A DNA stretch of 38,221 nucleotides from a virus. Shown in pieces: positions 3,145 through 19,407 of this stretch. A program made the translations under genes and the position numbers. The notes beneath the pieces are model-generated. The model was not told the DNA's origin. It ran no database searches and was given only the letters and a program-made list of their open reading frames with translations. Position 1 is the first letter of the stretch. Every line of letters begins with the position of its first letter. The stretch covers positions 1-38,221 of the IMG/VR virus record IMGVR_UViG_3300043410_000775; one strand, written 5' to 3'.

Positions 3145-3345
3145 TTATTCCTCCTTATCTTTTGGATTTCTTAATCTTAGTGTAAGTATCCACACTAAAA
3201 ATGATACTAAAGTTACATTTCCAATAACTGTTTTGGCTGATCCAGTAAGAACGAGCCATGCTGAGAATAACCCAACAAATGTCCAGATCTCACTGAAAAA
3301 ATCTGCTGAAATATCTTTAAAAAACTCCCATATTGCTTTCATCAT
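3145..3345 (-). CDS. Small two-helix membrane protein, second holin or antiholin candidate
   Basis: This 66-residue protein has two hydrophobic stretches (about 17-36, IWTFVGLFSAWLVLTG, and 40-57, VIGNVTLVSFLVWILTL) and a charged C-terminus RLRNPKDKEE. The ATG at 3345 overlaps the stop of the large secreted protein (ATGA). A strong AAGGAGG lies 8 nt upstream. The holin-like gene follows 2 nt later. Pairs of small membrane proteins like this often act as holin and antiholin, but nothing proves which is which. Confidence 0.6.
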   Translation of the reverse strand: MMKAIWEFFKDISADFFSEIWTFVGLFSAWLVLTGSAKTVIGNVTLVSFLVWILTLRLRNPKDKEE

Positions 3346-5915
3346 TGTCCGAACCTCCTTCTTAGTACTGGACCTGCAATTATTGTTGCGATCAGTACTT
3401 TCTTTGCTTTCTTTCTTGTAATAGGACTCATATCATTTCCGATATTAGCCAATGCTGCGAATGCCTCACTAACTGCCTGAACCGCTGCACCTGCACCTGG
3501 AATAGCATCAAGTGCTGCTGGAAGATATGTACACTGCTCAATTGGATGTTCATTTCCATCTAAGTCAACATGTACCATTGTTCCATCTTCTTTTGTAATA
3601 TCTTTACACACATATGTAACTAATACTGGCACTGCAATATCTGGTGCATTAAATGTTGTGCCTCCAGGTTGCCCTATAAATGTATCCTGCGTTGTAATCG
3701 CATCTGGTGGAATTGGTAGGCCTGATCCTGGAGGCGGAGCGGGTGGTGTAAGTTTTCCATCTTCCCCCACAACTTGAGGTGCTGATTTTGTTCCAAAGAA
3801 TTGTATTCCGCCATTTTCTATTCCTGGCTTATCCTGTTGTATGTGTGGAACTAGCACTTCTTTTGGTGCTTCTTTTACTACTGTATCTGAAAGTTGATCT
3901 GGGCTATTTGGCTTTAAGCCAGTCTCTGCCTCTTTTGCTTTATCTGCTTCCGCTTTAGCAGCATCTGCTTTTTCTTGTGCATCTTTAGCAGCCTGGTCTT
4001 TTGCTGCCTGTTCTGCTGCTGCTTTATCTGCTTCTGCCTTAGCATCAGCCTCTGCTTGGGCTTTGGCTTCCGCTTTTGCTTTAGCATTTGCTTCTTCTTG
4101 AGCCTTAGCCTCTGCTTCTGCTTTTGCTTGTGCTTCTGCCTGTGCCTTAGCCTCTGCTTCTGCTGCTAACTTTTCAGCCTCAGCCTGTGCAGCAGCATCT
4201 GCCTCTGCTTTTGCTTTTGCTTCCGCTTCTGCTGCTGCTTGTTCTGCAGCAATACGATCAGCCTCAGCCTTGACTGCTGCTTCTGCTGCTGCCTTTGCTT
4301 CTGCCTCTGCCTTGGCTGCTGCTTCTGCAGCGGCTTTAGCCTGAGCCTCTGCTTGGGCTGCTGCCTGTGCTGCTGCTTGGGCTGCTGCTTCTGCTGCTGC
4401 AGCCTCTCTTGCAGCCTGTGCTGCTATTGCTGCTTGTCGTGCTGCTTCTGCCTCTGCAGCAATTCTAGCATTTTCTGCTGCTATTCTTTGTTGCTCTGCA
4501 TAATAATTTGTAGTAACTTGAGCAGCATTTGTCATTGCTGTTACTGCTTCATTTACTTTTGTTGTTGCTGTATTTGCCAAAGAATCTGCTGTTTGAATAG
4601 CAGTTGTTAGGTTTTGATTTGCAGTTGTTAGGTTTTGCTGTTCTGTTGTTAGGTTTTCTTGAGCCGTTGTTAGGTTTTGTTCTGCTTCAACTTTTGCCGT
4701 TGTTAAAATTTCTAAGGTTGACTGATCATTAGTCAAAGTTGTTTGAGCGGTAGCAAGAGTTTGAGTAGCGCTTTCAATGAGGGCTGTCTTTTGGGTATTA
4801 TCTAAAACAGGTACCACAGTTAGCACATTGTCTTGACGAACACCAGTTCTTGGACCACCGTAAACATCTGTGTTTCCAGTCATAGTTCCTGCGCCAGTCC
4901 ACTCACCAGTTTCTGGATTAACTGTCATATCCCAGGTAATATAGGTAAGGGGGCCGTTGTTGTCTCCAAAACGGTGAAGAGTCCAGTCAATACTCAAGGT
5001 AGTTTCTGTAGTAGTTACAGTTATAGATGCACCATTTCCTGCACTCATGTAATCAGACTGAAATACATAAATTCCATCCTGAGTCATATTTGGCCAATCC
5101 CAATATGTGTAATCTGCACCACCAAACGAGATGGTTGCTTTCGAACTTACATAAATTTGACTGTTGGTTCCTTGACCATTAAAAACAGTATCTCCCATTT
5201 TTACATCAAATGGTGTTTGAATCTGTGTAGCAGCATCCCACATAGCGGGAAGAGTTGTTGTGGTAACAGTTGGAGTTTCTGGAGTAACAGGTGCTACATA
5301 CCCAGAAGTTGTATAGGTCATGGCGCTAGGTGGCAGTGCAACTGCTGCATCTAAGGCTGTTTGAGAATTTGATACGGCAGTAATGTCCGCAGCAACTACA
5401 GCGGTTTGTAATTCAACAGCAGTTGTAGCAACTTCTACTGTTGCCGTAGCAGACTCAACTGTTGCTGTAGCCTCAGCAACAATGGCTGTTTGAGACTCAA
5501 CATTAGCCTGTGCTATTGTTGCAACGGAAATTGCTGTCTCTGCTGACTGAATTGCTGTATTAGCATCTTGAACCTTTGTTGTTGCCTCAGATATAGCGGT
5601 GGCAATTGGCTCTGTTGTAGTGGCTATCTGAATGGCTGTTTGAGTATCTACCGTTGGATTATTGGACACTACTGTATTTATAATGGCTGTAGATTGTGCC
5701 TGAGCCTCTGTATTTAAGGTTGCTACTGCTGTCTCCACTTTAGCCTCTACAGTTTCTATTGTAATCTGTACAGTGCTTGTATCTGAAATAGGGGTAGTTG
5801 AAGGACTTACTTGAACAGTAACCTCGTCAGCATGAGCCCTTTCTGCTGGAGAAAAGATCATCCATAGTGTTAGAAGTAATCCTATAAAACTTGTTTTTAG
5901 TAAAAATGACTTTAT
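3342..5915 (-). CDS. Large secreted rod-like coiled-coil protein (non-AUG start proposed)
   Basis: From the first ATG (5861) the protein is 839 residues. The frame stays open upstream and encodes a classical Sec signal peptide: KSFLLK, then FIGLLLTLWMIF, then a cleavage site after AHA. No ATG, GTG or TTG occurs in that extension. The best-placed start is AUA at 5915, 3 nt after GGGGGAAGG, giving 857 residues. In order it has a Thr/Ala-rich coiled-coil, a Trp/Tyr-rich beta domain of about 150 residues (YWDWPNMT), and a heptad repeat of NLTTAxx. Then comes a rod of about 190 Ala/Glu/Lys residues like the middle of TolA, and a Pro-rich stretch. The C-terminal part has two Cys and a short hydrophobic end followed by RRRFGQ. 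It probably spans or coats the host envelope. It is translationally coupled (ATGA) to the membrane/holin genes. It could be a lysis aid, an exclusion factor or an adhesin; a virion fibre is less likely given the signal peptide. Confidence 0.75.
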   Translation of the reverse strand: MKSFLLKTSFIGLLLTLWMIFSPAERAHADEVTVQVSPSTTPISDTSTVQITIETVEAKVETAVATLNTEAQAQSTAIINTVVSNNPTVDTQTAIQIATTTEPIATAISEATTKVQDANTAIQSAETAISVATIAQANVESQTAIVAEATATVESATATVEVATTAVELQTAVVAADITAVSNSQTALDAAVALPPSAMTYTTSGYVAPVTPETPTVTTTTLPAMWDAATQIQTPFDVKMGDTVFNGQGTNSQIYVSSKATISFGGADYTYWDWPNMTQDGIYVFQSDYMSAGNGASITVTTTETTLSIDWTLHRFGDNNGPLTYITWDMTVNPETGEWTGAGTMTGNTDVYGGPRTGVRQDNVLTVVPVLDNTQKTALIESATQTLATAQTTLTNDQSTLEILTTAKVEAEQNLTTAQENLTTEQQNLTTANQNLTTAIQTADSLANTATTKVNEAVTAMTNAAQVTTNYYAEQQRIAAENARIAAEAEAARQAAIAAQAAREAAAAEAAAQAAAQAAAQAEAQAKAAAEAAAKAEAEAKAAAEAAVKAEADRIAAEQAAAEAEAKAKAEADAAAQAEAEKLAAEAEAKAQAEAQAKAEAEAKAQEEANAKAKAEAKAQAEADAKAEADKAAAEQAAKDQAAKDAQEKADAAKAEADKAKEAETGLKPNSPDQLSDTVVKEAPKEVLVPHIQQDKPGIENGGIQFFGTKSAPQVVGEDGKLTPPAPPPGSGLPIPPDAITTQDTFIGQPGGTTFNAPDIAVPVLVTYVCKDITKEDGTMVHVDLDGNEHPIEQCTYLPAALDAIPGAGAAVQAVSEAFAALANIGNDMSPITRKKAKKVLIATIIAGPVLRRRFGQ
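4603..4686 (-). repeat. Four tandem 21-bp repeats encoding a heptad repeat
   Basis: The + strand core GTTGTTAGGTTTT begins at 4603, 4624, 4645 and 4666, an exact 21-nt period. It encodes four NLTTA-x-x heptads in the secreted rod protein. The period equals one coiled-coil heptad, so copy number can change without breaking the frame or the helix register. Confidence 0.85.
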
Positions 5916-5954
5916 TTTCCTTCCCCCTTAGCAGACCAGATGTCTGATAAGGCT

Positions 5955-5963
5955 ATTATACCA
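5955..5963 (-). promoter_or_regulatory. Extended -10 promoter for the secreted rod protein and holin-like genes
   Basis: On the minus strand it reads TGG TATAAT, preceded by A, matching the motif shared by several promoters here. It lies just after the terminator of the 357-residue secreted protein gene. The -35 position is only a T-run, and a second TATAAT at 5973-5968 could contribute. The leader would be about 30 nt. It includes a small inverted repeat (CAGAC-ATCTG-GTCTG) and the GGGGGAAGG ribosome binding site. Confidence 0.6.
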
Positions 5964-5972
5964 TTTTATTAT

Positions 5973-6008
5973 AAAAGAAAAAGGACTAGCACTTCTGTAC
6001 TAGCCCTT
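5973..6008 (-). terminator. Rho-independent terminator after the 357-residue secreted protein
   Basis: On the minus strand GGGCTAGTAC and GTGCTAGTCC form a 10-bp stem with two G-T wobbles and an AGAA loop. It is extended by two A-T pairs and followed by TTTTTCTTTT. It starts 18 nt past the stop codon at 6026. It separates the terminase/secreted-protein transcript from the next unit, whose promoter begins about 10 nt further on. Confidence 0.88.
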
Positions 6009-6025
6009 AATCTTTTAAGTTTTAA

Positions 6026-7099
6026 TTACTTAAGTGTGGCAACCTTAGACTTTGGATTAGCCTTGTTCCACTTTGCAGCAAGCGCATTAAATGCCTTCTT
6101 TACTGCAGCAAGTGCAGCAGCATTATCAGCATTAGCCTTAGCAAGTGCAGCATTTGCAATTGCAAGATCTGCAACAGCCTTAGCAGTTTCTGCCTTAGAC
6201 TTTGCTAGTTCTGCATCGGCAAGTGCCTTTGCATCGGCAAGTGCCTTTACTCCTGCAGCCTTTTCAGCAGCAAGTTGTGCAATTGCTGTAGCAAGTTCAG
6301 CATTCTTTGCAGTTAGTTCTGCAGCAAGATCACGAACTGTGGCAGTCTTAACAATAACACCAAGTGGTGCTGCAAGACCTGTAACTGCAGATGCAACTGT
6401 TGCTGTGGCAACAAGTGTCACTGATCCAGATGCTGGAAGTGTTACATCCTGTGTCTTTGAGCCAAGAGTTGCTGTTGCTGTATCAGTTGTTAGTGAGTAT
6501 GTTGTTGAAGCAGATGGAGTAATGTACTGAAGGCTGATTGATGCTCCGCCCTTAGCATTTCCAAATACGTCATAGCCACGAACTGTTGCTGTGTATGTTG
6601 TACCAGCAGCACCTGATGTTGCTCCTTCAAGAGCAATCGTATTAAGTGCTCCTGCTGTACCAGCAAAATAGTATGTTGTTACATTTCCACCAATAGTTAC
6701 AGATACAGTACCTGGAGCAGTTGTAGTTGTGAAAACATAAAAATCAGCAGTAGTACCTGTACCAGTGCTGACTGATGCTGATGATGAACCAGCAGATGCT
6801 GTAACTGGTGCTGCTGATGTAGCAAGAGCAGTTACGATCTTTCCATTGGTTGCGACTGCAGAAACAACTGTACCTGTATCAAGGCCAGTCAGTGCAATCT
6901 TAAGAGCATCCGCAGAATCTACAGAGTTATCTGCAGGAACTGGAAGTGCAATTGCAGTTGCTGTTGTTGTACCAGCAGTTGCAGGTGATGATCCGCCAAC
7001 CGTGAGGGTTGTGGTAGCAGCACTTGCAGGTGTTGCAACAAGTGTGCTCACGGTGATGGCTGCAACCATACCTAGAGCGATTTTCTTAAATGAATTCAT
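6026..7099 (-). CDS. Secreted surface protein with Ig-like region and C-terminal coiled coil
   Basis: This 357-residue protein has a clear signal peptide: MNSFKK, a hydrophobic core, and cleavage after TPASA. The mature part is a Thr/Ala/Ser/Gly-rich beta region. It includes VRGYDVFGNAKGGASISL, typical of bacterial Ig-like (Big/invasin) repeats. An Ala/Lys coiled coil follows at about 255-340, then a basic end NKANPKSK. The composition resembles exported S-layer-like or surface proteins of Actinobacteria, so it may derive from or mimic a host surface protein. Its bases are visibly more GC-rich than the neighbours, largely because of Ala codons. AGAGGA lies about 7 nt before the ATG. It follows the large terminase gene and ends at a strong terminator. 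Whether it coats the host or the virion is unknown. Confidence 0.75.
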   Translation of the reverse strand: MNSFKKIALGMVAAITVSTLVATPASAATTTLTVGGSSPATAGTTTATAIALPVPADNSVDSADALKIALTGLDTGTVVSAVATNGKIVTALATSAAPVTASAGSSSASVSTGTGTTADFYVFTTTTAPGTVSVTIGGNVTTYYFAGTAGALNTIALEGATSGAAGTTYTATVRGYDVFGNAKGGASISLQYITPSASTTYSLTTDTATATLGSKTQDVTLPASGSVTLVATATVASAVTGLAAPLGVIVKTATVRDLAAELTAKNAELATAIAQLAAEKAAGVKALADAKALADAELAKSKAETAKAVADLAIANAALAKANADNAAALAAVKKAFNALAAKWNKANPKSKVATLK

Positions 7100-9815: not shown

Positions 9816-10412
9816 TTATTTGTCAACTCCAATAGCCTTATTCCAATTATTCATAGCCCAATGCCCAATTCCGCAAGCATCTGCAACATCATTATCTTCA
9901 ATATGCCTATCATAAATAGTATTAATAAACTTAATTGTTCTTTCTTTTCTAAGATTTCTTTCAAAGTTTTTATACCATGATACTGATTTGCCAGGATTTT
10001 GTGTTCTAATATAGAACTGTTCTTCCTTTGATAACTTCTTATTTCCTATATAGTTCTGCCATGTAATAGGAGATACCTTGCCAATAACTTTAGTCCCCGC
10101 TTGTCCTGCTGCCCCAAGAATAGCCCCCTGAACTAATGCAAGATCTGCAGCAGTCTTAGGGCTATTCATGAAGACAGTATGCTCAATTACTATTGCCTCA
10201 AACCCACCATAGTAATCAAAAACTGCTTTAACTTTTTTACCAGCATCCATTATTTTTTCATAAACATTATTTCCTTCAAAAGAAATTTTTCCAATAAATC
10301 CAAGATTTTCATCCTCTGTATTAAATAGCGCAAACGCAAGGCTATTAGTACTTGCATCAATCGCACATATTGTTGTTGGAGGTTTTCCAGAAACAATCTC
10401 TTTAAGACTCAT
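9816..10412 (-). CDS. RuvC-fold Holliday junction resolvase-like nuclease
   Basis: This 198-residue protein has the acidic residues of the RuvC/RNase H fold: D19 in CAIDAST, E78 in IVIEH, and D175/D178 in NDVADACGIG. RuvC enzymes resolve four-way junctions using such a metal site. VQGAILGAAGQAG in the middle resembles the RuvC dimer helix. It lies next to a Cas4-like nuclease and a zinc-finger protein, and upstream of the terminase genes. A role in resolving branched DNA before packaging fits. It overlaps the preceding gene by 4 nt (ATGA). A PD-(D/E)XK resolvase candidate lies at 14372-14659, so the phage seems to carry two. Confidence 0.8.
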   Translation of the reverse strand: MSLKEIVSGKPPTTICAIDASTNSLAFALFNTEDENLGFIGKISFEGNNVYEKIMDAGKKVKAVFDYYGGFEAIVIEHTVFMNSPKTAADLALVQGAILGAAGQAGTKVIGKVSPITWQNYIGNKKLSKEEQFYIRTQNPGKSVSWYKNFERNLRKERTIKFINTIYDRHIEDNDVADACGIGHWAMNNWNKAIGVDK

Positions 10413-10684
10413 TTAAAAAAATCCTTCATCTCTTTTAATGCTTTATTTACTTCTTTTGGATTAACTTCGCAAAAATAACAAAGTACGTCGTCGTTATATA
10501 TGGATAACTCTTCTCCACAAGACTTACATTTGCGAACTTTTCCAACTCTTTTTTGCCTTCTTGTTATCAAATATCTAGCAGCAATTTTTTCTTTTGTTGC
10601 TGCATCTCTACATTCTACAGAACAGTAAATTTGATAACTGATGTTTGATTCAAAGTTATGATCACACCATTGGCAAGTCTTCAT
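10409..10684 (-). CDS. Double zinc-finger protein
   Basis: This 91-residue protein has two four-Cys knuckles. The first is CQWC...YCSVEC near the N-terminus; the second is CKSCGEEL...CYFC in the C-terminal half. They are joined by a basic linker with RYLITRRQKRVGKVRK that could contact nucleic acid. It overlaps the Cas4-like gene by 23 nt and the RuvC-like gene by 4 nt, so all three are co-translated. A nucleic-acid-binding helper for these nucleases is plausible; no specific family is recognised. Confidence 0.7.
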   Translation of the reverse strand: MKTCQWCDHNFESNISYQIYCSVECRDAATKEKIAARYLITRRQKRVGKVRKCKSCGEELSIYNDDVLCYFCEVNPKEVNKALKEMKDFFK

Positions 10685-11468
10685 TCAGTGGCTCCAAAGG
10701 ACTAAGTTTGATAGTTCCCTCTCCAGCCGAAGCACATGCCTTTTGTACTGGACATGTCTTACATATCTTTGAGTTGGACCTATAATGTTTAATTGGCAAT
10801 GTCTTATTCATCCATGCCTTACGAACTTCTCTCATCCACTCAAATGCTTGGTCTACCCACCGAACATAATAATCGTTAACCTCAACAGGAAGTACTAACA
10901 ATTCATGATTATTTTTATTTTCATAAATAAAGATAGCATTTCTCTTCTTGAGGATTTTCATATAAATAAGCAATTGAATTAGGTGACCAGTTTTTGGTTT
11001 ACCCGCAGCCTTTCTATATTCAAATGCTTCATTCATCATTGTTTTAATTTCGCCAAGGAGTTCTTCTCCTTGCCAATTCAAAAGAACATCGCCATATCCA
11101 AAGATTGGAGGATCAGCATATGTTACTTTAAATTCATCATCAATGAGGATACCTGCATCTCTCATTGCTGTCTGAATTCTTCCATGCGATAAAGTTCCAG
11201 ATGTCATATTTGCAACACCATGTGCATCTGAGTTATCCTCAAAATCTGCACCCTCAAATGCTATGTACCAATATCTTGGACACTCTCCATGAGAGTAAGC
11301 AAGTGTAGATGGGGCAAATGTTTTTTTTGTTTGAAACTTTGTGCCTCTAGATGCAACATATCCAGCCTCAATAGCCTTCACAAGGCCTTGGGGGTCAATA
11401 GGATGAACCTCTGCCTTCTTTCTGTTTTCACCTTTAAGCATAACCTGTTGTAGTAAACTTTTTGTCAT
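10662..11468 (-). CDS. Cas4-like / RecB-family Fe-S exonuclease
   Basis: This 268-residue protein has the full motif set of Cas4/RecB-like nucleases: C63, H95 (GTLSHGR), D127 (GYGDVLL), E140-x-K142 (GEIKT) and QLLIYM (Q165...Y169). A terminal C236-x2-C239-x5-C245 completes, with C63, the ligands of a 4Fe-4S cluster. No CRISPR array or other cas gene is present. As in many phages, it most likely resects DNA ends for recombination with the RecA encoded nearby. An extended -10 promoter (TGC TATACT) lies about 25 nt upstream of the ATG. The ribosome binding site is weak (GAGAAAC). Confidence 0.88.
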   Translation of the reverse strand: MTKSLLQQVMLKGENRKKAEVHPIDPQGLVKAIEAGYVASRGTKFQTKKTFAPSTLAYSHGECPRYWYIAFEGADFEDNSDAHGVANMTSGTLSHGRIQTAMRDAGILIDDEFKVTYADPPIFGYGDVLLNWQGEELLGEIKTMMNEAFEYRKAAGKPKTGHLIQLLIYMKILKKRNAIFIYENKNNHELLVLPVEVNDYYVRWVDQAFEWMREVRKAWMNKTLPIKHYRSNSKICKTCPVQKACASAGEGTIKLSPLEPLNEDLPMV

Positions 11469-11504: not shown

Positions 11505-11807
11505 CTATCGTGTGATGTATTTTAATGCTGAGACCAAATTATTAATTGACTCTGCTGCTGTATAGTATAGGTTTTTCTTTCCACGGTCAGACTTATCTAC
11601 GTTTGCCATCCAAGTTGCTTTAAAGGCCATCTTTGCAGCAATTGCCTGCAATCTTACGATTTCTACAGTTGCCACATTGAGAGGAATGTCTGGCTTAATA
11701 ATTACCTTTGCAATAAAGGTAAGAGCCTGTGTTAACTCTTCATCTTCCATATAGTCTGCAATTTCAGACAGACCATTTACCATTTCTATTGTTGTTTCAT
11801 TGTTCAT
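11505..11807 (-). CDS. Helical protein of unknown function
   Basis: This 100-residue protein is predicted all-helical, with an acidic N-terminal third (EIADYMEDEEL) and a basic middle (NVDKSDRGKKNLYY). It has no motif I recognise. I recall similar short helical ORFs in actinophage replication regions. It overlaps the last oxygenase-like gene by 11 nt and ends just before the promoter of the Cas4-like gene, so it closes the oxygenase transcript. AGAGAAAA precedes the ATG. Confidence 0.65.
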   Translation of the reverse strand: MNNETTIEMVNGLSEIADYMEDEELTQALTFIAKVIIKPDIPLNVATVEIVRLQAIAAKMAFKATWMANVDKSDRGKKNLYYTAAESINNLVSALKYITR

Positions 11808-12339
11808 TTTGTTTTCTCTTTTCTATAAATTGAAAAAAAATATTTTCTACATATTCATTGTCACTAAATATTCTACCAGGTCTTCCATGTTTTTGCTCTG
11901 TTCCTATAAATGTAAGCGCCTCATTATTACTTAAAACGAAAATATCATCTTCTACTGAAATTCCCCAATCAACGTTTGCCTTATATTGGTAGTCAATAGT
12001 ATATTTTTTTAAAGTGCCACCATCTTTATGTGGATCAAGTTTTGGAACAAAGCCAAAGTCATTACAATACTTAATTATAATAATATCAAAGATTTCTAAA
12101 TCCTTGACATCGAAATGTTCTTCTGCAAACCTTTGTGTCTTCAATAAAAGATCTTCTGGAAAATTGCCAATGCACACTGCAGTATTCCACACATCTTTAA
12201 TAACACCATAATATCTGCCCAACTCATACTCTTTTGTATAATTAAAAGAATGCCTTGCAACCTTTTCTATATACTCAGATAGTGCTTGATATTCTGTATC
12301 TGTATAAAAGTTTTTAAATACCTGATTGATCTTCTTCAT
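11797..12339 (-). CDS. 2OG-Fe(II) oxygenase-like protein D
   Basis: Fourth and most divergent member of a tandem family. Starting at ATG 12339 (GGAAAC upstream) it is 180 residues. A start at 12441 would extend it 102 nt into the neighbour and is less likely. It has FYTDTEYQAL at the N-terminus, as in oxygenases of this class. The metal set is H104-x-D106 (DPHKD) and H151 (QKHGRP), 47 residues apart from first to last His. The usual HWR is replaced by HGR. Fe(II)/2-oxoglutarate oxygenases hydroxylate nucleic acids, proteins or small molecules; the substrate here is unknown. It overlaps gene C by 26 nt. Confidence 0.6.
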   Translation of the reverse strand: MKKINQVFKNFYTDTEYQALSEYIEKVARHSFNYTKEYELGRYYGVIKDVWNTAVCIGNFPEDLLLKTQRFAEEHFDVKDLEIFDIIIIKYCNDFGFVPKLDPHKDGGTLKKYTIDYQYKANVDWGISVEDDIFVLSNNEALTFIGTEQKHGRPGRIFSDNEYVENIFFQFIEKRKQNEQ

Positions 12340-13078
12340 ACTGTTTCCATGCAGCAATAGACTTAGGATGTCTTTGTACGGCCTCGGTATGTGATCTTCT
12401 TGCTTCTGGGAAAAGTATCGGATCAATTGGATTAGATTCACCTGTAAATCTGTAATTAGTTACAGGACAATAATCTACACTAAGTATCTCTAAATATTCT
12501 CCATCCTTAAACTTTCTCTTTGGTCGCCAGTGTACTTGATTAATAGCAGCAAAGATAATGGTTTGTCCAGGATATAAAGAATACCTAACCCCATCAATAT
12601 ACAAATCCCAATCAATATTAGAACTAATATTAGTATTTAGTGTGACTAAATTTTCATCTCCATCTAAATGTGGAGGTAGGATTGGATCATTGCCATCTCC
12701 GTACTTTAAGTTATACTCAATATAGTTATAATGACATAAAGCAATATCGCCATTGTAAACTGGTTTAGCAATCTTATCTAGTTTAGCCTCAATATGCTTT
12801 GGCATATCAAATTCAAGAAGGAGTCTTGACATATTTTTAATATGTTTTGGTCTATATCTTGTATTTAAATCTGGTTGCTCTGTATCATGTTTTTCATTTG
12901 GACCATATGCTATTGGCTTAAGTTCCAAGTTTTTGTTCCAAATTGCACGTAATTCTTTTAAGTCCTCATCTGAATATACGTCTTCTACATAAAATGGAAT
13001 TGGAACATTATATTTTTCAAATCCAGTCAGAAACTCATGCATCTTAGCAACTTTATGAATATTTTCACTCTGATTCAT
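12314..13078 (-). CDS. 2OG-Fe(II) oxygenase-like protein C
   Basis: Third member of the tandem family: 254 residues from ATG 13078, with GGTGGG 7 nt upstream. A TTG at 13099 is the alternative start. The N-terminus has YVEDVYSDEDLKEL. The facial-triad candidates are H137-x-D139 (PPHLDGD) and H183 (QVHWRP), 46 residues apart. They sit within the expected beta barrel (NIDWDLYIDG, LYPGQTIIFAAINQ). The second half of the HWR region has Glu where family A has Arg, so 2OG binding may differ. It has an extra basic C-terminal tail (about 225-254) absent from the others. Confidence 0.62.
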   Translation of the reverse strand: MNQSENIHKVAKMHEFLTGFEKYNVPIPFYVEDVYSDEDLKELRAIWNKNLELKPIAYGPNEKHDTEQPDLNTRYRPKHIKNMSRLLLEFDMPKHIEAKLDKIAKPVYNGDIALCHYNYIEYNLKYGDGNDPILPPHLDGDENLVTLNTNISSNIDWDLYIDGVRYSLYPGQTIIFAAINQVHWRPKRKFKDGEYLEILSVDYCPVTNYRFTGESNPIDPILFPEARRSHTEAVQRHPKSIAAWKQYEEDQSGI

Positions 13079-13682
13079 TTGTAAACCCACCATTGGCAAA
13101 AAATTGTCTCTTATATTTTATACTTTGTGCTTTTACTAATTCATTATCCATATCTGATTTTTGAGGTTCCGAAGGATCTGTTAAATGACAGAACAGCATT
13201 TCTACGTACTGATCATCTTCAAAATAGACAGGCTCTCTCCAGTGAATCTGATTTGTACCTGAAAAAGTTAATGCCTGGTTATTCTTAAGAACAAACTTAG
13301 TGTCTGGAGCAACAACTAATGGCCATTCAATATTAGCATTTAACTGTATATCAAAAGTAAATCTTGGTTCTTTAAATGTTTCATCGTAATGTGGAAATAG
13401 AGATGGCTTAAAATGAAATTTACCACAATTACTAGTAACATTTTGATATCGAGAATGACAATATTCTGTCAACACTAAATTATCATTTCCAGAAATATCT
13501 CTTGCATATTTTTCAATTTTTTCTACAATCGCATCTGGCAACTTAATAAATGTATTTGCCTGTGCGTGAGGTTGAATAAATTCACCACCAGAATTATTTC
13601 CCACCGCTTGATAAACCTGATTTATCTCATTTTGTGTAAATACATTTTCAACAACTGTGTTTGGTGTTTCAAAGTAGTTCAT
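13065..13682 (-). CDS. 2OG-Fe(II) oxygenase-like protein B
   Basis: Second member of the tandem family, 205 residues. It is the closest to A: ENVFTQNEINQVY near the start, FPHYDET (H98-x-D100), PRFTFDIQLN, NNQALTFSGTNQIHWRE (H147) and YVEMLFCHL. AGGAAA lies 7 nt before the ATG, which overlaps the end of A by 14 nt. Strong local identity to A suggests gene duplication. Catalytic geometry (HxD to distal His, 49 residues) suits a 2-oxoglutarate oxygenase. Substrate unknown. Confidence 0.65.
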   Translation of the reverse strand: MNYFETPNTVVENVFTQNEINQVYQAVGNNSGGEFIQPHAQANTFIKLPDAIVEKIEKYARDISGNDNLVLTEYCHSRYQNVTSNCGKFHFKPSLFPHYDETFKEPRFTFDIQLNANIEWPLVVAPDTKFVLKNNQALTFSGTNQIHWREPVYFEDDQYVEMLFCHLTDPSEPQKSDMDNELVKAQSIKYKRQFFANGGFTNESE

Positions 13683-14364
13683 TTATTTTCCTATCTGCCA
13701 ATACTGGCGTATCTTCAATTTTATACTTATTTTTTAAAAACATTGCCCTGTTTTCAGTCACATCTTTGTGACTTTCATGAAATAATCTATTATCTTTAAA
13801 TTCAAAATTACAGAATAGCATATCTATTCTTGTATGAGGACTTAAAGTTTTATCTTCTCTCCAATGAACTTGATTAGTTCCAGAAAAGAAAAGTGCTTGA
13901 TTGTCTTCTAGGTGATAAGTTGTTTCTTCTACAACAAGTCCCCAGGATTCATCTGTCTTTAGTTGAATATCAAGCAAGAATCTCGGTTTCGGTCTTAAAT
14001 CAGAATGGGGGAATAGTTTTGGTTTATATCCAAATTCACTACTGTATCTAGCAAATGAATAGTCCATTTGTAATTCAATTTCATCTCCAAATAAATGAAA
14101 TCCAATTTCATTAATTCTTTCAGTGATATCTGAATCAAAATGTGTTTTGAGCCAAGCACACTGTCCTCCCCAAGGACCTACCTTAAGGTCTGAAAGAGGG
14201 GTGTTGAGAACAACCTTGTAAATACGATCAATCTGATCTTTTGTAAATACGTTAGCAATAATTTGTGGATTATAATTTTGAAACTCTAATTGTGCAGTAT
14301 TGTCAACCAAATCTTGGTATTCTTTACTTCTACTCAGTGGGTGTGTTTCAATAACTTCTACCAT
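13669..14364 (-). CDS. 2OG-Fe(II) oxygenase-like protein A
   Basis: First member of the tandem family, 231 residues from ATG 14364. A longer reading from 14388 starts inside the promoter and is rejected. It has ANVFTKDQIDRIY at the N-terminus, H120-x-D122 (FPHSDLR), PRFLLDIQLK, DNQALFFSGTNQVHWRE (H167) and R179 in HTRIDMLF. H-D-H plus a following Arg is the classic set for Fe(II) and 2-oxoglutarate. A TATAAT sits exactly 6 nt upstream of the ATG and there is no close ribosome binding site, so the mRNA is probably leaderless. It is the head of a five-gene run (A-D plus the helical protein). Confidence 0.68.
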   Translation of the reverse strand: MVEVIETHPLSRSKEYQDLVDNTAQLEFQNYNPQIIANVFTKDQIDRIYKVVLNTPLSDLKVGPWGGQCAWLKTHFDSDITERINEIGFHLFGDEIELQMDYSFARYSSEFGYKPKLFPHSDLRPKPRFLLDIQLKTDESWGLVVEETTYHLEDNQALFFSGTNQVHWREDKTLSPHTRIDMLFCNFEFKDNRLFHESHKDVTENRAMFLKNKYKIEDTPVLADRKINELL

Positions 14365-14370
14365 ATTAAA

Positions 14371-14379
14371 ATTATACCA
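14371..14379 (-). promoter_or_regulatory. Leaderless-type extended -10 promoter for the oxygenase array
   Basis: On the minus strand ATGG TATAAT TTTAAT ATG: an extended -10, six nt, then the start codon of gene A. Transcription starts about 7 nt past a -10, which is the A of the ATG. The TATAAT also contains the TAA stop of the resolvase-like gene just upstream, so the promoter overlaps that gene's last codons (ATG GTA TAA). No clear -35. Confidence 0.6.
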
Positions 14380-14659
14380 TACCCTCAATTATTTGCTCTA
14401 GCAGATCAAATTCCATAATAGCAAGTCTTACTTTTGTATTTCCATTTCCTAGTACCAACAAAATCATTGGATCATTATTATTTTTAAGTGCATCAGTGAC
14501 TGCTTTAGCCCATACATCTTTGTTAATTGCAAAAGATTTAGAGCATTCTTTGAAATCAACAGTAAAGTTTTGCCATGTGGCATCACCCTTTTTGCTATTC
14601 CTACCAGAATTTTTGTGCTGCTTAGCACCAATTCTTTTACTCTCGTTCTTCTCGCTCAT
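14372..14659 (-). CDS. PD-(D/E)XK Holliday junction resolvase-like protein
   Basis: Starting at ATG 14659 (AAGGA just upstream) it is 95 residues. An earlier ATG at 14737 would add 26 residues read through the zinc-ribbon gene. The pattern HKNSGRNSKKGDA (D26), then VDFKE (D35-x-K37), then SFAINKDVWAKAVTDAL and DPMILLVLG matches small phage/archaeal Hjc-like nucleases. In those, a basic SGR-x-KGD loop leads into a D-x-K core and a helix and strand follow. The usual N-terminal Glu is Gln here (AKQH), so activity is uncertain. It follows RecA and the zinc ribbon. It overlaps the ribbon gene by 23 nt. Confidence 0.58.
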   Translation of the reverse strand: MSEKNESKRIGAKQHKNSGRNSKKGDATWQNFTVDFKECSKSFAINKDVWAKAVTDALKNNNDPMILLVLGNGNTKVRLAIMEFDLLEQIIEGMV

Positions 14660-14819
14660 AATCCTTCTTTTTCTTTGTGGCAAATGAAACTTTTGACAAG
14701 TGCTTATCTTTACACATCCATGTAGCCTCCATAGCATTTGCGTATAATCTTAATGTGCCCACTTCTTTTTTACATACTTGGCAAAGAAACTTTCCTTCAT
14801 AGACAGTATAACTAGCCAT
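14637..14819 (-). CDS. Zinc-ribbon protein downstream of RecA
   Basis: This 60-residue protein has FLCQVCKKEVG and WMCKDKH, a C-x2-C...C-x3-H zinc ribbon, followed by a Lys/Arg/Glu-rich tail. The ATG overlaps the RecA stop by 8 nt, so translation is coupled. Such ribbons in phage replication blocks may bind nucleic acid or polymerase. The function is not known. Confidence 0.7.
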   Translation of the reverse strand: MASYTVYEGKFLCQVCKKEVGTLRLYANAMEATWMCKDKHLSKVSFATKKKKDYEREERE

Positions 14820-15825
14820 TAAGTTTATTCTTAATCATATCTTGTAGATCAAGGTCCTCTCTTACTCTTGCAATAAATGCTTCTCGTCCCTGAATTTTTG
14901 TTCCATCTTCTAACTGATACCAGGCTCCAGTACGATTTATGATGCCAAGTGATTCAGCAGTATCAACCAAATCACCGATACTGTCAACCCCAACACTATC
15001 ACCTCTAAAATAGAAATCATATTCACCAGACTGAAAAGCAGGAGAAGTTTTGGAAAACTGTAATTCCCATCGTACTTTTCTACCAACTTTTTCTTCAATA
15101 AGTTTGTCACCAACATGTATTTTTCCTTTCAATGCTTGGTTGTCAGATTCTGACGAAAATAGTTTAATAACCGTAGAGGAATAAAACTTAGTAGCCTGAC
15201 CACCAGTAGGCTGCTGGCTAGTATACATAGCATTAATATTATTACGAGACTGGCTAATAAGGATAAAGAGAGTAGGCTTAACTTTATTGTTAGCATAGTT
15301 AAGCATTTTCCATGCATTGCTAAAGTCTCTAGACTCCGCTCCAATCTGCTTGGTATTCTCAAGTTGCTTAAGTTCATCTGAATCCTTTTCAAAGTAAATT
15401 GCTGGAAGAAGTGACGTAATTGAATCTACTACAATTAGATCAACTCCTGCCTCCATCAATTGTACACCCACATCTACCATCTCATTAATTGTTCGTACTG
15501 TAGACACAATCAACTTAGAAGTGTCTACACCTAAACTTGCTGCCCAATTTTTATCATACGACATTTCGGCATCAATCCAGGCACAGATCTTTCCTTCCTG
15601 TTGAGCCAAAGCAATTGTCTGTAAACATACGGAAGACTTTGCACTAGACTTGCTTCCCCAGATTAGAACCTGTCTGCCATATGGAAGCCCTCCATTAAGT
15701 GCACGGTTTAGCCCAAAACTAGGAGTTTTAGCATATTCAGTTTGTGGAACAGCATCTCCAGACATAATGCTTTTACGTAGTTTTGGATTTAGTTGTGCCA
15801 AAACATCTTCTACTGTAACTGTCAT
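14812..15825 (-). CDS. recA: RecA-like recombinase
   Basis: This 337-residue protein has the RecA core: IDAEMSYD (after the P-loop), LIVVDSITSLLP (Walker B and start of L1), and SQSRNNINAMYTSQQPTGGQATKFYSS (L2, quoted in part as TGGQATKFYSS). The C-terminal part (VGVDSIGDLVDTAESLGI) matches the RecA end. It lacks the long acidic C-tail. The P-loop reads GSKSSAKSS (57-65): the Gly before the Lys is Ala, unlike GPESSGKT. It is joined to MazG by TAATG and to the zinc ribbon by an 8-nt overlap. GGGGTGAG precedes the ATG. Role: strand exchange during phage replication, with the Cas4-like nuclease and resolvases. Confidence 0.92.
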   Translation of the reverse strand: MTVTVEDVLAQLNPKLRKSIMSGDAVPQTEYAKTPSFGLNRALNGGLPYGRQVLIWGSKSSAKSSVCLQTIALAQQEGKICAWIDAEMSYDKNWAASLGVDTSKLIVSTVRTINEMVDVGVQLMEAGVDLIVVDSITSLLPAIYFEKDSDELKQLENTKQIGAESRDFSNAWKMLNYANNKVKPTLFILISQSRNNINAMYTSQQPTGGQATKFYSSTVIKLFSSESDNQALKGKIHVGDKLIEEKVGRKVRWELQFSKTSPAFQSGEYDFYFRGDSVGVDSIGDLVDTAESLGIINRTGAWYQLEDGTKIQGREAFIARVREDLDLQDMIKNKLNG

Positions 15826-16142
15826 TAGAATCTCACCCCATGCTTTTGTGGCCTATCTTTGTTGATATTTGCCTTTTCTTGCAGAGCATAATCTAAAGAA
15901 ATAGTCGTGTATCCCGCCTCAACTAAACCTGCATACAGGTCCAAGGTTCTAATAAAGATATCTGCTGTTTCTAAAGCAATCTCTTCTTCACCTTTATCTT
16001 TTCTAATAGCCTCCATCAACTCTGTCACTTCAGATACTATCATCATACATTGTTTTGCAATAAAGATATCATCTGTTTCTTCAGGCCAAAAGCCTTTTTC
16101 TACAGCAGTCTTATGTAACTGCTCTGCTAGATCATCAAGCAT
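15825..16142 (-). CDS. MazG-like nucleotide pyrophosphohydrolase
   Basis: This 105-residue protein has SEVTELMEAIRK (ExxE-like helix) followed by ALETADIFIRTLDL (ExxD), the metal motifs of the MazG/all-alpha NTP-PPase fold. Members hydrolyse NTPs or dNTPs to monophosphates. Phage versions may clean the nucleotide pool or change host alarmones. It overlaps the DnaE end by 8 nt, with GGAGG just before the ATG, and is joined to RecA by a 1-nt overlap. Confidence 0.8.
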   Translation of the reverse strand: MLDDLAEQLHKTAVEKGFWPEETDDIFIAKQCMMIVSEVTELMEAIRKDKGEEEIALETADIFIRTLDLYAGLVEAGYTTISLDYALQEKANINKDRPQKHGVRF

Positions 16143-19100
16143 TTATATCCTCCAATATAACTGTACCGTCTTTTGTCTTGCCAAAACTAAACTTGTAAAC
16201 ACTTCCCTCTTCAATTTTCATATATGCTTTTGCAAATGCTGTAGGGAATACTGTCACGGAATGCAAATCTCTAGATGCATCTGCAACTGTTAAAGATGCC
16301 ATTTTCTTTCCAGCCTTTGTAACTCTTGGCTTAAAAGAAACAACAAACATTTCATCATCTTTATATGGTAGCATACGGTAATTTAAAAACTTTACTAATG
16401 CATGACTAGATGTTTTTAATTCATCGATTGGTACTGCAGAAACTATACGATTATCATTTGCTAACAATAGATATGTTTTTCCTGCTTCAATAGATGACTG
16501 CTCCTCATCAAAGATTCCAACACTACCAGTTTTATCTAGAAGTTCAACTCTAGACCAACCAGTACCTCTCTTTATCCCCTTGATCATTCCCATCATGATA
16601 AACGATCCTTTTTCTTCATAATCCTCTGCAGGAGTAATGAATGCATAATAGTGAGATGGAACTGTAAGATTAAACTCTGGAAGATTTAAGTACTCATAAA
16701 GATTTTCTTTAATCTCTTCATCATTTCTTGGATTATCTAAGAATGTTGCTGCACCAGTGACTCGTAGTGCCTGAAGAGCACGAGAGTTAACCCCATTTCC
16801 TTTTGTAAAAGTAAACTCTTCAAGTTCAGCATACGACTTAAAAGGACGCCCTGCAATGTATCTTTCAGCAATCTTGTCTGAAATAAATTTAATTGCTGAC
16901 AAACCAAATCTAATACCTTTGCCCTCAATCTTAAAATCAATATCTGAGTCATTGATATGAGGAAGTTTAATGCTAATGCCCATTCTTTTTGCTTCAATAA
17001 GGTATTCAGTACGTGCATCTTTGTCCTTTTCATTTTTTAATAGTGAGTACATAAACTCTAGTGGATAGTGGTACTTTAGCCATGCTGTCCAGTATGATAA
17101 AGTGGAGTAGGCAACGGCGTGGGATTTATTAAAAGAGTATCCTGCATGCGCTTCAAAGTCAGACCACAGATCACGAGCAGTATTAGGAGCAACAAAGCGA
17201 CTTGCACCTTCAACGAACTTATCTTTAAAGATGTCAAATTCCTTAGCATCTTTTTTCTTTCCAATGATTTTTCTAACTTTATCTGCTTCCGACATGGACA
17301 TACCGCCAAGCGATACGCATGCTTGCATAACTTGTTCCTGGTAAAGAATACAACCATAGGTTTCCTCCGTAAACTCCTTCAATACTTGGTGTGTATAGCC
17401 AATATTCTGACGACCATGCTTACGTTCAATGTAGTCTTTACCAATTGTGTTCATTGCTCCTGGACGAACTAGAGCATTTGATGCAGCAAGTTCTGAAAGA
17501 TTTTTAACACCCATCTTAATTAGCAAGTTTGTATATGGTGTTGCTTCACACTGAAACACACCCTTTGTATAACCATCAGAAAGCATCTGGTATACATTTT
17601 TGTCATCCATATCGATATTGAGAAGATCAATTTTCTTGCCTTCTCTTTCTTCAATAATAGTTAGGGCATCTTTAAGCACACTTAAAGTTTTAAGTCCAAG
17701 TGCGTCGATTTTGATGAGACCAATCTTTTCAGCCTCTTCCATATCCACCGCAACAACAGGAATACGGTCATCGCTACCAGGAGAAGTACGTGTTTCCATT
17801 GGTGCGTATTTAAAAATAGGATGCTTACTAGTGACAACGCCAGCAGCGTGAATGCCAGTACCTCTAATACGACCACGTAATTGTTCACCATAAATTTCTA
17901 CCTCTGGATATTTCTCACGGAATTCCCGTGTTGTTTTTGATGTACAGTACTCATCCCAAGTATCTACAAGTTTAAGAACCTTATTTACATCTGTTAATGG
18001 AATATTTAAAACTCGTGCAACATCTCGTACAACACCCTTGTCTTTAAAAGAAAGGAATGTGGCAATCGATGCAACATGTCGATACTGTCTAACAAGATAG
18101 TCCTTAACCTCTTCACGACGGGAATCCTGAATATCTGTATCAATATCTGGAAAGTCATTACGTTCTGGGTTAATAAAACGGAAGAAAAGAAGTTTATGTT
18201 TAATTGGATCAATATCTGTAATTCTTAGTGCATAGCACAACAGGGAACCTGCAGCAGAACCACGACCTGGGCCAACCATAATACCTTCTTTCTTTGCCCA
18301 CGTAATCATGTTACGTACAACAAGAAAGTAAGGACCAAACTTCTTATCCTTAATAACTTTTAATTCTTCGTCTAATCTATCTAGGTATTCCTGATTTTCA
18401 TGAAGTCCTCGTTCTTTTAGTCCTTCGAGGGCAAGTTCTTTTAATTCTTTATCTGGATTCTTATACTGTACTGGAAGAAGGTCTATGCCCTCTTGAATAC
18501 CATAATCTGTAACCTTGTCAGCAATCTCAAGGGTATTGGCATAGATATCTGGTCTATCAACTCCCTGAGCCTCCATTGCAGACTTCATTTCCTCATAGGA
18601 AAGCAAATGAATATCGAATTCGTTAAAAGTAATTTGACGATCATGCCCATAGAGATAGTCTAGGCGTTCCATCATATTAGTATACTTTTTTGATTTTTCA
18701 AAGGTATGCTCTTTATCAATCTTAACATGTGTGTTAAGCAATAACTTAAATTCCTGAATTTCTTTTTGTTCTTCTGAACTATGGTGACAGTCTGGGGTTA
18801 CTACAACTTTAATATCAAATTCGTCTGCTAAGGCAATAAGTTGCTTATTAATTTCTGCAGGATTGTGTGGCATTACCTCAATGTAATAATCATCATTAAA
18901 TACTCTTTTAAACCATTCAATGTGCTTTTTAGCAACTGCAAACTCATTATTCTCTAATGCCTTAACAAGTACACTACTTGGACACGCAGAAGTAACAATA
19001 ATTCCTTCTGAATACTTTTCAAGAATTTCAAAGTCAAATCTTGGCTTCTTGAAATATCCTTCTGTCCAGGCAATTTCATTAATCTTATTAAGATTTTCTA

Positions 19101-19407
19101 AACCAACTTGGTTCTTGGCGAGAAGAACTATATGGTTGTAGACTAGATCTAGATCTCCGTCTCTTTCAGACTTGTCTCTAGTATCAAATCTATCTTGACA
19201 CATATAGCCTTCTACACCAAGTATAGGCTTAATACCCTTCGCTTTTGCAATACGGTGCAGTTCCCTATGCCCAGATAAAGTACCGTGGTCAGTGATGGCA
19301 ATTGCTGGCATCCCTAACTCAACTGCACGGTCAATGTATTCTTCTGGAGTAGCGATTCCGTCAAAGAGGGAATAGTGGGTATGTACGTGTAAGCCTACGT
19401 AAGACAT
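16135..19407 (-). CDS. dnaE: DNA polymerase III alpha subunit (family C)
   Basis: This 1,090-residue protein is a near full-length DnaE. The N-terminal PHP domain keeps its metal ligands: H7/H9 and D16 (LHVHTHYSLFDG), H41 (TDHG), E66 (GVEGY), H92, C142, D206/H208. That set matches DnaE proteins whose PHP domain proofreads. The palm has GPGRGSAAGSLL (about 379-390), FPDIDTDI with D421/D423 as catalytic pair, and KIDALGLKTL with the third Asp. The finger motifs YGCILYQEQVMQ and SFNKSHAVAYS follow. An OB-like C-terminal region starts near 950. It begins 3 nt after the SSB stop with no ribosome binding site, suggesting reinitiation. No separate 3'-5' exonuclease is in the window, so PHP proofreading is likely. 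This replaces the host polymerase for phage replication. Confidence 0.96.
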   Translation of the reverse strand: MSYVGLHVHTHYSLFDGIATPEEYIDRAVELGMPAIAITDHGTLSGHRELHRIAKAKGIKPILGVEGYMCQDRFDTRDKSERDGDLDLVYNHIVLLAKNQVGLENLNKINEIAWTEGYFKKPRFDFEILEKYSEGIIVTSACPSSVLVKALENNEFAVAKKHIEWFKRVFNDDYYIEVMPHNPAEINKQLIALADEFDIKVVVTPDCHHSSEEQKEIQEFKLLLNTHVKIDKEHTFEKSKKYTNMMERLDYLYGHDRQITFNEFDIHLLSYEEMKSAMEAQGVDRPDIYANTLEIADKVTDYGIQEGIDLLPVQYKNPDKELKELALEGLKERGLHENQEYLDRLDEELKVIKDKKFGPYFLVVRNMITWAKKEGIMVGPGRGSAAGSLLCYALRITDIDPIKHKLLFFRFINPERNDFPDIDTDIQDSRREEVKDYLVRQYRHVASIATFLSFKDKGVVRDVARVLNIPLTDVNKVLKLVDTWDEYCTSKTTREFREKYPEVEIYGEQLRGRIRGTGIHAAGVVTSKHPIFKYAPMETRTSPGSDDRIPVVAVDMEEAEKIGLIKIDALGLKTLSVLKDALTIIEEREGKKIDLLNIDMDDKNVYQMLSDGYTKGVFQCEATPYTNLLIKMGVKNLSELAASNALVRPGAMNTIGKDYIERKHGRQNIGYTHQVLKEFTEETYGCILYQEQVMQACVSLGGMSMSEADKVRKIIGKKKDAKEFDIFKDKFVEGASRFVAPNTARDLWSDFEAHAGYSFNKSHAVAYSTLSYWTAWLKYHYPLEFMYSLLKNEKDKDARTEYLIEAKRMGISIKLPHINDSDIDFKIEGKGIRFGLSAIKFISDKIAERYIAGRPFKSYAELEEFTFTKGNGVNSRALQALRVTGAATFLDNPRNDEEIKENLYEYLNLPEFNLTVPSHYYAFITPAEDYEEKGSFIMMGMIKGIKRGTGWSRVELLDKTGSVGIFDEEQSSIEAGKTYLLLANDNRIVSAVPIDELKTSSHALVKFLNYRMLPYKDDEMFVVSFKPRVTKAGKKMASLTVADASRDLHSVTVFPTAFAKAYMKIEEGSVYKFSFGKTKDGTVILEDINA

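Follow-up and report, generated by a model that had tools for sequence, protein, structure and literature searches.

What purpose the many 2-oxoglutarate (2OG) oxygenases serve in phages that infect aquatic bacteria is a question dating from at least 2010, with 2OG metabolism or DNA repair proposed, and tandem 2OG oxygenases in phages are already known from the annotation of cyanophages and pelagiphages (PMC3037559). Many EGLN3-like oxygenases of phages appear in structural surveys (PMC12774648). The label 'ferrochelatase', considered below, is widespread in cyanophages and in seasonal enrichment studies (PMC11561400). Outside phages, mimivirus L230 hydroxylates and then glucosylates viral collagen (PMC9546862), and in the Dictyostelium Skp1 pathway prolyl hydroxylation by PhyA is followed by N-acetylglucosamine (GlcNAc) transfer by Gnt1 (PMC3515798). 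Here we analyse a 38,221-base virus record of a tailed phage (IMG/VR record IMGVR_UViG_3300043410_000775; the whole of this stretch is hereafter the window), which carries an array of four genes, A–D, whose products belong to the Fe(II)/2OG oxygenase class, an assignment well supported by motif conservation and predicted structures. A–D almost certainly form an ordered accessory cassette in one genomic slot. The best explanation overall, which we put forward tentatively, is that they are peptidyl hydroxylases acting on virion or fibre proteins of the phage, sometimes before glycosylation. The four genes are as follows.

Oxygenase A, 13669..14364, minus strand: 231 amino acids (aa), clade A; HSD ... 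QVHWRE.
Oxygenase B, 13065..13682, minus strand: 205 aa, clade B; HYD ... QIHWRE.
Oxygenase C, 12314..13078, minus strand: 254 aa, clade C; HLD ... QVHWRP; in kin phages it accompanies every B.
Oxygenase D, 11797..12339, minus strand: 180 aa from ATG 12339; HKD ... QKHGRP.
Oxygenase D, alternative start, GTG 12441, minus strand: 214 aa.

The genes are consecutive and overlap by 14 nucleotides (nt; A/B), 14 nt (B/C) and 26 nt (C/D, with D read from ATG 12339, the start favoured because the longer version is modelled with low confidence over its first 34 residues). They share an N-terminal motif (NVFTKDQI, NVFTQNEI, DVYSDEDL and NFYTDTEY in A–D, respectively), an (S/A)GT(N/E)Q-like strand, and an HxD...H metal triad which is intact in all four; the spacing between HxD and the distal His is 47, 49, 46 and 47 residues, exactly as described in an earlier interpretation made from the DNA alone (the sequence-only reading). 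A tblastn search of the window with A returned B (E = 3e-26), D (1.5e-16) and C (2e-8), showing that the four are true paralogs and do not resemble one another by chance. The same interpretation had given the array a promoter of its own, for which we find no support: promoter-like matches occur at the shuffled level (18 found versus 20 ± 5 expected). The ATG of A lies 7 nt below the stop of the upstream gene.

A single-protein search of viral contigs and a tblastn search of phage records with A gave no matches. With an alignment of the four paralogs as the query, 61 viral loci were found; together with the window they hold 187 open reading frames (ORFs) of the family, 119 of them distinct. The array is thus real and conserved in related phages. 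HxD keeps its His and Asp in 117 of 117 aligned distinct members, and the distal His is followed by an Arg at position +2 in 118 of 118, this Arg being read as HWR or HGR in every intact member. The family signature is HxD ... GTxQxHWR. A basic residue (Arg/Lys) is found at any one of positions +9 to +13 in 0–16% of members, compared with 100% for the Arg at +2. Since the latter is invariant, while none of the sites +9 to +13 is commonly basic, it is a candidate for the 2OG ligand. The suggestion that A retains a 2OG-binding Arg while B–D vary proved misleading, as the residue in question (+12 from the distal His) is an Arg in only 7 of 119 members and is not conserved even in A orthologs. When the family profile was aligned with a pair of canonical oxygenases of locus L056, the match was too weak for placing the missing Arg.

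No Pfam family matched A–D, and PF13640 (P4Hc-type) was absent both for these four and from the top families listed for 92 family members. The sole meaningful PHROG link is to phrog_2954 ('ferrochelatase'), which A, B and C match weakly and over the core only (E = 2.5e-3 to 1.3e-4) and D does not match; a profile comparison gave E of about 1e-7 to 3e-8 for phrog_2954, and 1e-7 to 5e-9 across the cyanophage and pelagiphage 'ferrochelatase' relatives, again over the core. A sequence search of the PDB gave no meaningful match, and a scan of GTDB species genomes with a 12-row family alignment found no relative, so that no cellular source emerged from that pattern search. As judged from these profiles, A–D represent a phage family with no Pfam model and are distant kin of the cyanophage 'ferrochelatase' genes.

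AlphaFold models of B (predicted local distance difference test score, pLDDT, 95.7; predicted template-modelling score, pTM, 0.91) and D (88.8 and 0.80) are confident jelly-rolls of the 2OG-Fe(II) type, as had been anticipated, and A and C are assigned this fold by homology only. The top PDB matches of both models all fall within the Fe(II)/2OG oxygenase superfamily, the closest folds being OGFOD1, NMAD-1, AlkB and PHD2 at Foldseek template-modelling (TM) scores of about 0.5–0.6. OGFOD1 heads the matches listed for B, which also include PHD2 and Tpa1 entries. Among viral entries, the best matches are proteins of uncultured phages and one 'ferrochelatase' of a Synechococcus phage. It is very likely that A–D have an active-type oxygenase fold; they may also be catalytically active and use 2OG.

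The position of the array is constant. Within the stretch that each contig covers, 55 of the 61 loci have oxygenases of the family, in one to five copies, in the same slot (L056, L057 and L062–L065 are the six exceptions), and the common order is DnaE-RecA-phrog_2002-(oxygenases)-phrog_9818-Cas4-RuvC-TerL. The corresponding features of the window are listed below.

DnaE-like DNA polymerase III alpha, 16135..19407, minus strand.
RecA-like recombinase, 14812..15825, minus strand: closest to Streptomyces phages, about 49% identity.
Upstream slot border phrog_2002, 14372..14737, minus strand: annotated Holliday junction resolvase.
Downstream slot border phrog_9818, 11505..11807, minus strand: highly conserved, function unassigned.
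Cas4-like (PD-(D/E)XK) exonuclease, 10662..11468, minus strand: anchor of the slot survey.
RuvC-like Holliday junction resolvase, 9816..10412, minus strand.

The DnaE and RecA proteins are nearest to Streptomyces-phage homologues, and the phage is of a Streptomyces-phage-like, or actinophage-like, type. We surveyed the slot in kin phages using the Cas4-like gene as the anchor and taking the best 80 of more than 500 loci, which is not a random sample. Both borders are present in 67 of these loci. The family occupies 17 of the 67 slots, with one to four members each, and is missing from 50, of which 40 have borders that touch or lie no more than 28 nt apart and 10 hold a different ORF, which on inspection by eye looks like a DnaQ-like exonuclease. 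This 200–244 aa gene, reading as a DnaQ-like 3'-5' exonuclease (LDIETTP ... NSAxFD), was seen in L074, L087, L106, L129, L138, L142 and L143; its occurrence either alone or ahead of oxygenases in the same slot identifies the slot as a cargo hotspot. The placing of the array inside the recombination block by the sequence-only reading is therefore right as to position, but the array is an accessory insert, missing from most of the surveyed kin phages, in which the recombination genes are kept.

This setting bears on whether A–D modify DNA or nucleotides, by AlkB- or TET-like repair or hypermodification. The slot lies among two resolvase genes, RecA and the Cas4-like exonuclease, it may hold a DnaQ-like exonuclease (assigned by sequence reading) instead, and D and B resemble NMAD-1/AlkB structures. 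A Foldseek TM of about 0.5 cannot, however, separate AlkB from prolyl hydroxylases, and family members at other sites adjoin fibre genes. Moreover, no C5-DNA-methylase (PF00145) occurs in any of the 34 longer kin records used for genome-context comparison (21 cassette-bearing, 13 cassette-free), which counts against TET-like oxidation of 5-methylcytosine. Because cassette-free kin keep the recombination block and a methylase partner was not found, DNA modification is less favoured, and we regard it as quite improbable.

In a tree of the family A, B, C and D form separate ortholog groups, and classification of the arrays gives a fixed order of A/X, B, C, D/E. B is always accompanied by C (36 of 36 distinct arrays, in the order B-C in 35), although single-copy arrays of clades A and E exist. 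An active oxygenase domain is fused to a degenerate sister domain in L015:7866-9032, L047:7580-8770 and L049:7082-8284, and stand-alone degenerate ORFs lie at L045:4755-5210 and 5906-6385; these sister domains, which have no metal triad, are possible pseudo-enzyme partners, and the degenerate half in record G005 still matches the family (E = 3.6e-8). The fixed order, the obligate B-C pairing and the active-degenerate fusions lend indirect support to the earlier idea of a heteromer or stepwise pathway. Taken further, the array could be one hetero-oligomeric enzyme, with a B-C core plus A/X and D/E, and not four enzymes. The intact metal triad in all four proteins and the single-copy arrays argue against this, and we consider it unlikely, but such an assembly would be compatible with peptidyl hydroxylation and does not exclude it.

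B and C are under purifying selection: their ratios of non-synonymous to synonymous substitution rates (dN/dS, from a stricter dS limit, values of dS up to 1.5 being saturated) are about 0.075 and 0.071, compared with 0.04–0.07 for core genes (about 0.04 for the controls RecA and Cas4). Clades A and E evolve faster (0.18 and 0.51, from few pairs). Such rates would be expected of adapting targets if each of A–D modified a host protein of its own (in the ribosome, RNA polymerase or defence systems), in the way that OGFOD1/Tpa1 modify a ribosomal protein, and OGFOD1 is the best solved-structure match. Relatives at other sites, though, adjoin virion genes, and modification of host proteins seems to us rather improbable.

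Cassette-bearing genomes are rich in other oxygenases. PF13640 oxygenases above the curated cut-off are found elsewhere in 20 of 21 cassette-bearing records versus 1 of 13 that are cassette-free (Fisher p = 3e-7). As the cassette-free records are shorter on average, the test was repeated on records of at least 50 kb, with counts of 20/21 versus 1/7 (p = 1e-4); both p values are optimistic because related records are not independent. Members of the HWR family are also found outside the slot, and within about 100 kb G001 and G005 carry about 13 and about 14 distinct oxygenase ORFs, respectively. GT2 glycosyltransferases do not track the cassette.

Evidence for the substrate comes from the fibre locus of kin phages, in regions chosen near collagen-like genes or repeat matches, a biased sample. 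A conserved collagen-like gene in this locus is a tail fibre by PHROG. Six records hold a proline-repeat gene followed, 6 nt to about 1.1 kb away, by an HWR-type or canonical oxygenase gene.

G001: proline-repeat gene, PTPTP with a PASTA domain.
G003: proline-repeat gene, PTPVAP.
G005: proline-repeat gene, PVVPP.
G017: proline-repeat gene, PAPAP and PTP.
G019: proline-repeat gene, PTPVA/PTPA.
G021: proline-repeat gene, PTPTT.

Pattern searches of whole records showed that the longest repeats (G001, G005, G017 and G019) all have a neighbouring oxygenase, while shorter repeats in G002, G013, G014 and others have no adjacent one. In G001, G003, G017 and G021 a PF11397 GlcNAc transferase gene on the same strand directly follows the oxygenase gene, overlapping or abutting it. 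PF11397 is the Pfam family of the Skp1 GlcNAc transferase Gnt1; it is present in 6 of 21 cassette-bearing and 0 of 13 cassette-free records (p = 0.06). Long PTP, PVVPP or PAPAP repeat proteins are encoded at L153:11530-13041, L154:9945-11354, L163:6221-8227, L164:4005-5258 and L165:8478-9338, the first with a PASTA domain and a weak C-terminal match to an intein-splicing domain.

Since members of the family neighbour proline-repeat genes as well as PF11397 genes, the best single reading of these data is peptidyl hydroxylation, with virion proteins as the substrates. In this model A–D would be four Fe(II)/2OG-type oxygenases, held as an accessory cassette in one fixed slot, each a peptidyl (probably prolyl) hydroxylase with its own target sequence. 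With the further oxygenases encoded elsewhere they would hydroxylate those virion or fibre proteins in which proline or collagen-like repeats abound; in some phages a neighbouring PF11397 transferase would go on to glycosylate the hydroxyl. The effect would be to alter fibre stability or surface chemistry (adsorption, masking). Virion-protein hydroxylation is a tentative substrate assignment, and prolyl specificity is suggested by fold similarity and genomic association; we infer the substrate class of A–D by extension from their relatives at fibre genes.

Several observations weigh against this reading. The family lacks the Arg/Lys that canonically binds 2OG at +9 to +13, and D is closest in fold to NMAD-1 and AlkB, proteins of a kind that in some cases acts on nucleic acids. 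G026 has a PTP repeat gene but no oxygenase at all, the collagen-like gene also occurs in cassette-free phages, and oxygenases are not significantly close to it (p = 0.07 by rotation test). What points to a substrate is the placing of paralogs elsewhere in the genomes of kin phages: the slot of A–D lies among recombination genes and the fibre region of this phage falls outside the 38 kb of the window, which weakens the extension from relatives. Two narrower candidates were rejected, namely a (TP)n repeat alone as the cassette-specific trait, which cassette-free G026 rules out, and the collagen-like gene as the specific partner, which is unsupported given its presence with and without the cassette and its p value for proximity.

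Pairs of canonical oxygenases also occur within gene clusters in G014 and G002. In the G014 cluster (L169, 62000-81000) the two 2OG oxygenases are joined by a carbamoyltransferase, a pair of PF11397 glycosyltransferases, a weak GDSL match and repeated unassigned genes of ~280 aa. Oxygenases set among a carbamoyltransferase and glycosyltransferases would fit action on small molecules or sugars, or the burning of 2OG so as to alter host nitrogen and carbon signalling, a role put forward for the oxygenases of cyanophages (PMC3037559). By contrast, the presence of four to fourteen paralogs that diverge and are each conserved separately suggests that every one has a specific substrate rather than that all share a single bulk reaction, and we judge such a role to be distinctly improbable.

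A broader version of the virion-protein reading is that this phage lineage runs its own hydroxylation-glycosylation programme, in which up to fourteen oxygenases, including A–D, would hydroxylate proline-repeat and collagen-like fibres and hydroxyproline-type GlcNAc transferases would glycosylate them, giving hydroxyproline-rich glycoprotein fibres on a bacteriophage. We hold this programme to be doubtful. No report of phage fibre hydroxylation was found in the open-access papers searched.

Elsewhere in the window, the left end carries two host-like proteins with no PHROG match, a DUF885 protein (223-1869; E = 1e-121) and a tetrapyrrole-methylase-type (RsmI-like) protein (1952-2788), which are either possible auxiliary genes or a host-derived end. 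Two long Ala/Thr/Val-rich proteins with no family match follow, one with an Ala/Glu/Lys coiled stretch (3342-5861) and the other with a clear signal-peptide-like start, MNSFKKIALGMVAAITVSTLVATPASAA (6026-7099); both appear secreted or surface-bound, making them unusual neighbours for terminase.

New here are an HWR family with no Pfam model; a cassette of four ordered paralogs that occupies a single slot in an actinophage-like lineage and is present or missing among kin; the strong co-occurrence of the cassette with other oxygenases; and the linkage to proline repeats and PF11397. The lineage is a natural contrast, since closely related phages either have or lack the cassette at a single, precisely defined slot, and the finding of family members behind fibre genes and beside hydroxyproline-type glycosyltransferases turns an 'auxiliary metabolic gene' into a testable claim of virion modification.

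Of the solved structures, the OGFOD1/Tpa1 and PHD2 prolyl hydroxylases are the closest folds (TM about 0.55), but share only 10–14% identity and have the +9 to +12 2OG Arg which is missing in the array family. Tpa1 pairs one active with one inactive jelly-roll, an arrangement resembled by the active-degenerate fusions of L015, L047 and L049. The Dictyostelium PhyA-Gnt1 system likewise joins a prolyl hydroxylase to a GlcNAc transferase; it serves a single host target, however, and the window has no PF11397 gene. Mimivirus L230 is a precedent for a virus modifying its own collagen-like proteins, although it is a fused enzyme of a eukaryotic giant virus with a lysyl target, whereas the phage case is known by genomic association only.

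Among phages, oxygenase genes stand similarly side by side in T4-like cyanophages and pelagiphage HTVC008M (T4-GC 412, 155, 101, 240 and 619), with up to five in tandem in HTVC008M, a precedent beyond the single phage oxygenases that the sequence-only reading named. These runs consist mostly of differing canonical families, in HTVC008M beside neck genes, whereas the array described here consists of four HWR-family paralogs in a RecA-Cas4 slot. In S-SSM5 a carbamoyltransferase adjoins a 2OG oxygenase and an HWR-type 'ferrochelatase', and in cyanophage S-SCSM2R a protein with one HWR-type and one canonical-looking (P4H-type) domain adjoins glycosyltransferases, one of family 25, a neighbourhood that counts in favour of virion-protein hydroxylation. 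Distant relatives of A–D are the cyanophage and pelagiphage 'ferrochelatase' genes themselves (T4-GC 615, phrog_2954), which share the core HxD ... G(M/T)EL-HWRE and are likewise found in runs, beside canonical 2OG oxygenases. They differ in that identity is below 35%, the core alone aligns, the phage lineage and genomic place are other, and no ordered paralog set of that family is seen there. The genes at L066:5821-6411 (S-SSM5) and L068:3629-4270 (HTVC008M) both read HxD ... HWRE and align with the array family. Judging by this alignment the 'ferrochelatase' label is probably wrong, and a name in wide use for cyanophage genes would hide an oxygenase related to A–D.

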